Translations under genes and position numbers: made by a program | Notes under the pieces: generated by a model | Told to the model about the DNA's origin: nothing | Database searches by the model: none | What the model saw: the letters and a program-made list of their open reading frames with translations, nothing else | Origin: Balneolia bacterium | Lineage (GTDB): Bacteria; Bacteroidota; Rhodothermia; Balneolales; Cyclonatronaceae | Reading direction: 5' to 3' | DNA length: 35,046 bases | Assembly: GCA_003566635.1 (NCBI GenBank) | Contig: PXCK01000005.1 | Span: forward strand, 1 to 35,046 | Shown here: one piece after another, positions 16,316 to 19,169 of the stretch | Numbering within the stretch: position 1 is the stretch's first letter | How the letters are laid out: every line of letters starts with the position of its first letter

Positions 16316-18262
16316 ATGAAGCATTCAATCGTGTTAATCGCCCTTTTGGGACTTACTTTTTATGGGTATAAAACCTCAGTCTTTGCACAAGAATCTGATA
16401 CTACAATAACCATGCAGGTAGATTTATCATCTGTGGTAGTGAGCGCGCAGCGAACGCCTGTTATGCGGGGTGAGCTCATGCGGTCGGTTCAGGTAATTAC
16501 CGCGGCTGAAATCCGCCAAAGTGGCGCCAATGATTTAGCCGGTGTGCTGGAACATGTGCGTGGCGTGGATATCCGAAAACGAGGTACATTCGGGATGCAG
16601 GCGGATGTCAGTATTCGTGGCGGCACATTCGATCAAACCCTCATTTTGCTAAACGGCGTGAACATCACTGATCCCCAAACCGGCCACCATAATTTAAACG
16701 TACCTGTAGATTTGGAAACCATCGAACGGATTGAGGTGCTTCATGGTCCCGGTGCCAGAGTTTTTGGGCCTAATGCCTTTAACGGAGCCATCAATATTAT
16801 TACCAAACAACCGGGCAAACAAAATGCTACGCTGCGGCTGACGGGCGGTGAGCACATGTTCGGTGCAATATCGGCAACGGCTGGACTTACCACCGGGCCG
16901 GTATCTCATTTTTTATCCGTAAGCGGTTTAACAAGTGATGGCTTTACAAATAATACAGACTTCAAATCCGAAAACATCTTCTACAGGTCGAACCTACAAA
17001 CCGATGCCGGTCGCCTTGATCTACAAGCCGGATATAACCAAAAAGCATTTGGAGCGAACAGTTTTTACACGCCTCGTTTTCCTGATCAATACGAGCAGAC
17101 AAGAGCGGGATTTCTGTCTTTAAGGTGGCTTCCCGATGGAGGGATAAACCTTTCCCCGACCGTTTATTGGCGTCGTCACCATGACCGCTTTGAGCTTTTT
17201 CGGGATGAAGCCCCCGTCTGGTACACCACCCACAATTATCACCGCACGGATATTTTGGGGGCATCCGTAAATTGGGTGCACGTTTCTCAATTTGGAACCA
17301 CCGCGCTCGGACTCGATTACCGTTATGAGCATATTTTTAGTAATGTTTTGGGGGATGAGATGTCCTCGCCCTTGCCGGTGCCCGGCTACGAAGACGCGTT
17401 TTTTACCAACTCCTACGACCGCAACACTTACAGCCTGATGGCCGAGCAAACGGTTCAGTATGGGGATGTTACCGTGAGTGGCGGAACCCTGGTTTTTGTG
17501 AACACAGAACTGGATAATAACGTGAGTTTCTTCCCCGGTTTGGATATCGGCTGGCAGGTAAATCCCAACTGGAGGATGTACACCACAGCAAACCGCACGC
17601 TCCGTTTACCCACCTTCACTGATTTGTTTTATGAAGGTCCCGATAATCTCGGAAATCCCGACTTAAAACCCGAAGAGGCCATTTCTGTAGAGGCCGGCGT
17701 GAAACTCAATTACGGCAGGTTTAGCGCTGATGCGGCTTTATTCAGAAGATGGGGTACCAATATGATAGACTGGGTTCGCGCCCCCGGTGATCCGGTTTGG
17801 AGAAGTGAAAACCTCACGGATGTAGTCATTACCGGTGTAGAAACGGGCGTTACCTTTTTACTACCGTATGATGACAGGGCAAGACTCTCTGTACAATACG
17901 GATATAATCATGCTGACAGATCAAGTGGTGATTTGGTTTCTAATTACGCACTCGATTTTCTTCGAAATAAGGTGGATGTCGTGTATTCTACGCCTGTCCT
18001 CAGAGACGGCGGCATAAACCTTTCAGCTTCCTGGCTCGACAGAAATGGCTCCTATCTGGTATTTGATGGAATAGATTTTACCGGTGAATCTGACTTTGAA
18101 GCCCAATGGGTCGTAAACGCCAAAGCGCATTGGAATGTTCAATCGGTGCAGCTTTTTGGTGAGGTTTCCAATCTATTTGCCACCCAATACGCACCCATAG
18201 CAAATGTCCCTCAACCAGGTCGTTGGGTACGTTTTGGCATTGCAACACAATTTTCTTATTGA
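16316..18262 (+). CDS. TonB-dependent outer-membrane receptor
   Basis: This 648-residue receptor has an N-terminal signal peptide (cleavage near VFAQ), a TonB-box-like VVVSAQRTP region, and a plug domain with SIRGGTFDQTLILLNGV, DPQTGHHNLNVP and IERIEVLHGPGARVFGPNAFNGAINI. A barrel follows, ending in an aromatic C-terminus (FGIATQFSY). It resembles BtuB/CirA-like receptors in plug and length and has no CarboxypepD_reg domain. The substrate is unknown: vitamin, siderophore or metal chelate. The coding sequence from about 16440 onward is clearly more GC-rich than its neighbours, hinting at separate origin. A dispersed repeat begins right after the stop codon. Confidence 0.92.
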   Translation: MKHSIVLIALLGLTFYGYKTSVFAQESDTTITMQVDLSSVVVSAQRTPVMRGELMRSVQVITAAEIRQSGANDLAGVLEHVRGVDIRKRGTFGMQADVSIRGGTFDQTLILLNGVNITDPQTGHHNLNVPVDLETIERIEVLHGPGARVFGPNAFNGAINIITKQPGKQNATLRLTGGEHMFGAISATAGLTTGPVSHFLSVSGLTSDGFTNNTDFKSENIFYRSNLQTDAGRLDLQAGYNQKAFGANSFYTPRFPDQYEQTRAGFLSLRWLPDGGINLSPTVYWRRHHDRFELFRDEAPVWYTTHNYHRTDILGASVNWVHVSQFGTTALGLDYRYEHIFSNVLGDEMSSPLPVPGYEDAFFTNSYDRNTYSLMAEQTVQYGDVTVSGGTLVFVNTELDNNVSFFPGLDIGWQVNPNWRMYTTANRTLRLPTFTDLFYEGPDNLGNPDLKPEEAISVEAGVKLNYGRFSADAALFRRWGTNMIDWVRAPGDPVWRSENLTDVVITGVETGVTFLLPYDDRARLSVQYGYNHADRSSGDLVSNYALDFLRNKVDVVYSTPVLRDGGINLSASWLDRNGSYLVFDGIDFTGESDFEAQWVVNAKAHWNVQSVQLFGEVSNLFATQYAPIANVPQPGRWVRFGIATQFSY

Positions 18263-18268
18263 TTATAA

Positions 18269-18530
18269 CTAGCCCGGATTATTCACCAAAAAATTTTCTT
18301 GGTAGCAAGGCGAAGGTGGAAAATCAGCGGAAGGGTACCTAAATACCCTGAGTATGACTTTTTCAACTTCAACGCAGCTAGCATGGAATAGCACTTCGTG
18401 GGAATCGCTTCGCTCGGAGTGCAGCATTTTAACCACACTCAAATTTGAGTGAGTGTGATATCTTTCTATATATAATATTTTTAATAGCATAAGATTCAAA
18501 TTTCATGCTTTCGTGAATAATTCGGGCTAG
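18269..18530. repeat. 262-bp MITE-like element with terminal inverted repeats
   Basis: CTAGCCCGGATTATTCAC at 18269-18286 and GTGAATAATTCGGGCTAG at 18513-18530 are inverted repeats with one mismatch in 18. The left half is shared with 2175-2285. An internal perfect palindrome CACTCAAATTTGAGTG lies at 18436-18451. No transposase is encoded; the 76-codon minus frame across it is not convincing. It fits a small non-autonomous mobile element. Confidence 0.6.
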
Positions 18531-19090
18531 AATATTGCCAAATAATCCTTGCTAATTCGTAACTGGTTGGGGTGTTCCGGTTGTTTTCCGTAGTGATATG
18601 GACGTAATTGGTAGGGATAATCCGAATACTGCGCGTGGTTTAATTTGTTGGGGCGTTTCAGAAAATGTCCATGGTGGTAATTTATATTGGCGACGTTTTT
18701 TTGTAGGGTCATTGGTAATTTATAGGGGTTCTTGTATAGACGTTAATTCATAGGGGCATTGCATTTCGTAAGGACGATTTCGTAGGGACGTTGCATGCAA
18801 CGTCCCTACGAAATTAACGCCTTTACCATGCAACGTCCCCACAATTTGACACCATTACCACCAACGTCCCTACGAATTACACCGATACCACTGTTACCCT
18901 TTACGGCTAACGTCCAATATCGCAACCTCTGTTGCTGCCGTCTACCGATATCTGCAACGTCCCTACAAATTGACACCGTTATCATAATCACACAATGCCA
19001 TCAAAGCTTGATACCTCAAATATCCCTACTAACCACCACGGAAACGGGAATAGGAATCTCACTTAAACACGACCGAATGACCTAAATTTC
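18531..19090. repeat. Degenerate GTAGGGACGTTG repeat array converging on a palindrome
   Basis: No gene is credible here. Left of about 18795 there are many degenerate copies of a GTAGGGACGTTGCAT-like unit in one orientation (for example TTGTAGGGTCATTGG, TATAGACGTTAATTC, CGTAAGGACGATTTC). Right of it the same unit occurs in the opposite orientation (CCATGCAACGTCCCCAC, CCAACGTCCCTACGAATT, TGCAACGTCCCTACAAATTG), spaced roughly 35-60 bases. The two ORF-track frames over this stretch are low-complexity artefacts of the repeats. Confidence 0.6.
18777..18814. repeat. Perfect 38-bp palindrome
   Basis: ATTTCGTAGGGACGTTGCA is followed immediately by its exact reverse complement, with GCATGC at the centre and no unpaired loop. 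The core resembles the GTAGGGACGTTGCATGC-type palindromes seen repeatedly in other bacterial genomes, sometimes linked to REP-associated tyrosine transposases; no such gene is in this window. Confidence 0.85.
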
Positions 19091-19169
19091 ACCAAAACCA
19101 AATAACCTTTCAACCATAAAGTGCCAAGTAGCAATTACAATTTCGGTACATCAAAATAAAAAAACTGGG

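Follow-up and report, generated by a model that had tools for sequence, protein, structure and literature searches.

The window, meaning the whole stretch of 35,046 nucleotides analysed here, carries between two convergent genes (ends at 18262 and 19170) a perfect palindrome on which two arrays of short degenerate repeats converge (Table 1). The first-pass annotation, made from the letters alone, had placed this structure at 18531 to 19090. The array proper extends from about 18566 to 19029, and the right end up to 19090 takes in a remnant of a transposase gene. On the left a MITE-like element adjoins the array, to which it is probably unrelated. Elements of this type, approximately 190-260 bp long with inverted ends (C/G)GTGAATAAT(T/C)CGGG(C/T)TA, occur genome-wide. 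Their ends were found at 126 genome sites with at most two mismatches, and the reversed control had 0 matches. Copies lie just upstream of the window array and of the C132 gene described below (L052 7405-7597), and also on many other contigs.

Table 1. Features between the two convergent genes, with positions counted from the first letter of the window
Feature	Position	Strand	Remarks
MITE-like element	18270..18529	.	about 260 bp, inverted ends GGTGAATAATCCGGGCTA / CGTGAATAATTCGGGCTA, with many genome copies
Left array	18566..18781	+	9 degenerate GTAGGGACGTT-like half-units, G/T-rich
Perfect 38-bp palindrome	18777..18814	.	19-bp arms, loop 0
28-bp double-foot REP core GTAGGGACGTTGCATGCAACGTCCCTAC	18782..18809	.	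at six genome loci, exact or with one mismatch
Right array	18815..19029	-	5 half-units in opposite orientation, A/C-rich on the + strand
Decayed TnpA-REP 3' part	19015..19119	+	73% identical in DNA to the intact gene at C132 (105 bp)

The palindrome and its converging half-units

The initial description, of repeats in opposite orientation which meet on an exact 38-bp palindrome, was borne out. In the window, half-units were called as GTAGGGACGTT or its complement (11 bases) with at least 8 of the 11 bases matching. At this threshold all 14 half-units (14/14) converge on the centre and the arms contain no opposite-sense half-unit, and shuffled arms gave means of only 0.6 and 0.85 half-units, compared with the 9 and 5 seen. 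The outermost 5 bp on each side of the palindrome (ATTTC/GAAAT) are particular to this locus. In addition, the predicted single-strand fold of 18560-19030 reaches -74 kcal/mol vs -52 kcal/mol in shuffles (z -5.1).

A strong predicted fold at a site between convergent genes could also mean that selection maintains a functional regulatory hairpin, such as a two-way transcription terminator. The terminator scan, however, gave nothing at the palindrome, its two sites being at 18210-18227 and 18434-18457 only, and most of the other cores in the genome lie in or beside transposase remains, thus the structure is not peculiar to the window locus. We consider such a regulatory role very improbable.

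The first reading had also held that the copies near the centre are best preserved, with unit divergence rising with distance. This did not reach significance in the window alone (Spearman rho -0.13, p 0.65), where a right-hand half-unit still matches at 11/11 bases at 160 bp from the centre, but it stood when the arrays of the genome were pooled (within-arm permutation p 0.0035).

Core copies and transposase genes

The proposed genome searches both gave positive results, with five more cores and with 11 Y1_Tnp matches. The core GTAGGGACGTTGCATGCAACGTCCCTAC was found at six loci, namely C9, C50 (the window), C98, C132, C149 and C230, the copies at C98 and C230 each having one mismatch, and the reversed-pattern control had 0 matches in the genome. 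Converging half-units stand on both sides of the core at five of the six loci, whereas the array at C9 is one-sided, with 5 half-units on one side and 0 on the other. The two arms also differ in their unit spacing at C149 (mostly 30-60 bp vs 13-15 bp) and at C230 (33/52 bp vs 13-16 bp). At C230 (L049, 6281-6800), one array arm only carries an 85-bp tandem repeat in about seven near-identical copies, which suggests a recent one-sided amplification.

Parts of TnpA-REP/RAYT genes adjoin five of the six cores. The suspected link to REP-associated transposases was hence confirmed, and it is closer than guessed, since the array belongs to the transposase gene itself. At C132, an intact ORF of 240 codons encodes an HuH/Tyr transposase of the REP-associated kind (TnpA-REP/RAYT), in which the core and array are read in frame and stand between the HuH motif and the Tyr motif. 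The protein has the motifs NHVH, WQ and YIKHNP. Its scores of 57.8 against NCBIfam NF047646 (cut-off 80) and 19.9 against PF01797 (cut-off 23) are below the cut-offs, the probable reason being a match split by the long linker. At C230, C149 and C9, clear remains of a TnpA-REP gene adjoin the array on at least one side; at C98 the array is present, and gene remains were not detected beside it. In the window, besides the decayed 3' part, a tblastn match of 19029-19118 to TnpA-REP shows 57% identity over 30 aa, and the 5' HuH half of the gene is not detectable in the window. Given the place of the core in C132 and the gene remains beside the cores, including those in the window, the array is best read as a dead transposase linker. 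We infer by homology that, in the gene which is now broken, it once stood in frame between HuH and Tyr. The core would presumably be the putative recognition site of the encoded nuclease.

The place between two convergent genes is typical for REPs (PMC3733652), and the locus might accordingly be taken as a BIME/REPIN-like cluster of independent intergenic insertions, with a transposase remnant nearby by chance. This is quite improbable, since five of the six cores are beside transposase parts, one of them in an intact reading frame, and since BIMEs alternate in orientation, whereas each arm here is one-sense throughout. With only six core copies in the genome, the array does not show the classical dispersed REP/BIME pattern of many intergenic copies in alternating orientation.

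The origin from a transposase linker can be compared with what is known of subclass 2.4. In the passages of Quentin et al. 2018 (PMC6006769) on this subclass, REPs are described inside the tnpA-REP genes, generally between HuH and Tyr and with the frame kept; the motifs are given as NH[IFV]H, WQ and YIxNNP and the 'double-foot' REPs as GT[AG]G...C[TC]AC, and REPs flanking the gene are said to be usual, not stated as required. Our loci agree with these passages in the GTAG...CTAC palindrome, the position between HuH and Tyr, the frame kept and the occurrence in Bacteroidetes and Cyanobacteria, so that the in-frame REP in tnpA-REP is, as a kind of structure, already known from that description. 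The intact C132 copy has the motif order of the subclass, with YIKHNP one residue off YIxNNP (which itself occurs in several relatives), and carries the in-frame double-foot REP between HuH and Tyr; the window copy is without the HuH half. Unlike the subclass as described there, C132 has no flanking REPs with arms of at least 10 within the up to 700 bp searched on each side, and among the relatives a palindrome lies outside but near the gene at only 13 of 47 loci, in 7 of these 13 with a half-stem almost the same as that of the internal palindrome. The internal palindrome is more constant than the flanking one, in a sample which was itself chosen for having an internal copy.

Linkers of related genes

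For comparison, a set of 71 intact linkers was used, comprising C132 and relatives from Bacteroidota, Cyanobacteria, Chloroflexi and others. Palindromes with arms of at least 8 were present in 58 of these linkers vs 3.1% of shuffles, and with arms of at least 10 in 47 vs 0.14%. The double-foot pattern with a GCATGC centre was found in 49/396 genomes of the phylum, and the reversed GCATGC-centred pattern had no match among the genomes listed. In 53 intact linkers, 40 further half-units are outward in the same sense and 11 in the opposite sense, with 1.8 expected in shuffles, and the opposite-sense ones are mostly in linkers that have more than one palindrome. In the relatives, the sequence to the right of the palindrome is rich in A/C, but that to its left has no higher G/T content than more distant parts of the gene, and left/right base skew was therefore dropped as an indication of a long hairpin.

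Two further arrangements were observed in these genes. In L058 (1741-1868) and in the L137 linker, palindromes stand in tandem with a spacing of 54 bp (18 codons), in or by the transposase gene. In L082, L114, L102 and other linkers, triplet-type repeats (poly-Pro, poly-Gln, Thr/Ala codons) abut the palindrome, which may mean that slippage close to the hairpin gives rise to short repeats as well.

Near-identical gene pairs allow the sequences beside the palindrome to be compared. L062 and L097, which are 97-98% identical beside the linker, are 21 in-frame bp apart in an unpolarised comparison. These 21 bp are a tandem copy of flank and half-arm, bounded by TTG and adjoining the palindrome on one side; the same pair has a matched change in the two arms, GTGGGG..CCCCAC vs GTAGGG..CCCTAC. 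A 15-bp half-unit is present in L110 and L111 and absent from L066 and L068, again in an unpolarised comparison. In L086 the identical core occupies the same position in the gene and the array is absent. The gene parts on either side of the linker are 93% and 91% identical between L086 and L088, but the two have quite unlike perfect palindromes, and their linkers differ as a whole, suggesting that the block was exchanged or re-inserted.

Furthermore, the palindrome often extends past the 28-bp core with locus-specific sequence, by 5 bp in the window, 7 at C132, 10 at C9 and 12 in L076. Symmetric extension of at least 5 bp was found in 10 of 89 double-foot palindromes vs 0.35% of permuted flank pairs, with p ~1e-12 when related palindromes are counted as independent. 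These extensions argue against a fixed inserted element, since such an element would carry fixed flanks, and they would be directly explained by the copying of one arm from the other through template switching.

Proposed growth of the array

We consider it probable that the window array is the remnant of a TnpA-REP linker of the subclass 2.4 type, whose half-units arose through slippage at the hairpin together with arm copying by template switching; for the mechanism of growth itself, the comparison of loci and relatives gives moderately good support. In genes of this type the double-foot REP palindrome sits in frame in a tolerant linker, which leads from the HuH catalytic motif to the Tyr helix. 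According to our proposal, the palindrome may during replication fold on the single-stranded template and the polymerase may pause in the stem, whereupon the new 3' end would slip back to a short upstream match and re-copy the flank and half-arm. Each slippage would add one half-unit on its side of origin and, as both strands would be capable of it, the two arms would grow independently and converge. Fold-back copying between the arms (quasipalindrome template switching) would keep the centre perfect and extend it into the local flank. A live gene would retain only lengths that keep the frame, and a dead one, such as that of the window, may accumulate units of any length, which then decay. The array itself is probably without function.

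The convergence of the units, the intact centre and the outward decay seen in the pooled arrays would also fit nested insertion, in which the transposase puts each REP into the centre of an older palindrome and the older halves are pushed outward, and so would the differing stem and linker block of L086 and L088, otherwise 91-93% identical. Nested insertion does not account well, however, for the unequal arms (C9, 5 vs 0; C149 and C230 with unlike spacing), nor for the L062/L097 change, which is one-sided and a tandem copy of the local flank and half-arm. We regard it as unlikely. The stems of L086 and L088 are not explained by slippage alone, hence insertion is possible for a new stem and is disfavoured only as the source of the array. 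The first-pass annotation had suggested growth from the centre by slippage or by repeated insertion at a cruciform. On the near-identical relatives one half-unit apart and the unequal arms, slippage beside the centre is favoured over insertion, and the cruciform route was unsupported as the main one.

Several parts of the proposed origin by slippage and template switching have parallels in known systems. Intragenic GTAG REPs (Di Nocera et al. 2013, PMC3733652) and the Rickettsia palindromic elements are likewise palindromes tolerated in reading frames, but they lie in many unrelated genes, whereas here one homologous place in one gene family is concerned. An established class of mutation makes the arms of hairpins perfect by template switching (PMC8794818, PMC7202029). 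Our loci share arm homogenisation and paired hairpin changes with it and differ in that half-units have also grown in tandem within the linker of a transposase. Compared with the REP insertions in the passages of PMC6006769 on subclass 2.4, the present loci differ in their converging half-REP arrays, their locus-specific arm extension and their dead-gene remnants. For arrays or slippage at intragenic REPs, the 2013 and 2018 papers were the nearest precedents in the parts of the open-licence literature that were covered. We did not find described there the converging half-REP arrays, the arms extended symmetrically with locus-specific sequence, or the close gene pairs 15 or 21 in-frame bp apart beside the palindrome, and these features are apparently undescribed in that literature.

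In the present study, an odd intergenic structure is explained as the fossil of a domesticated-transposase gene. The gene pairs offer natural before-and-after examples of the growth, perfection and decay of hairpins, which are usually studied with reporters, and the comparison can be extended to the many genomes of Bacteroidota, Cyanobacteria and Chloroflexi with this type of gene. More speculatively, the in-frame hairpin could act as a built-in mutation generator that maintains the perfection of its arms and raises or lowers the number of half-units, with the result that the length and composition of the linker shift fast. We hold this to be rather doubtful at present; if true, the transposase may be tuned or retired over time.
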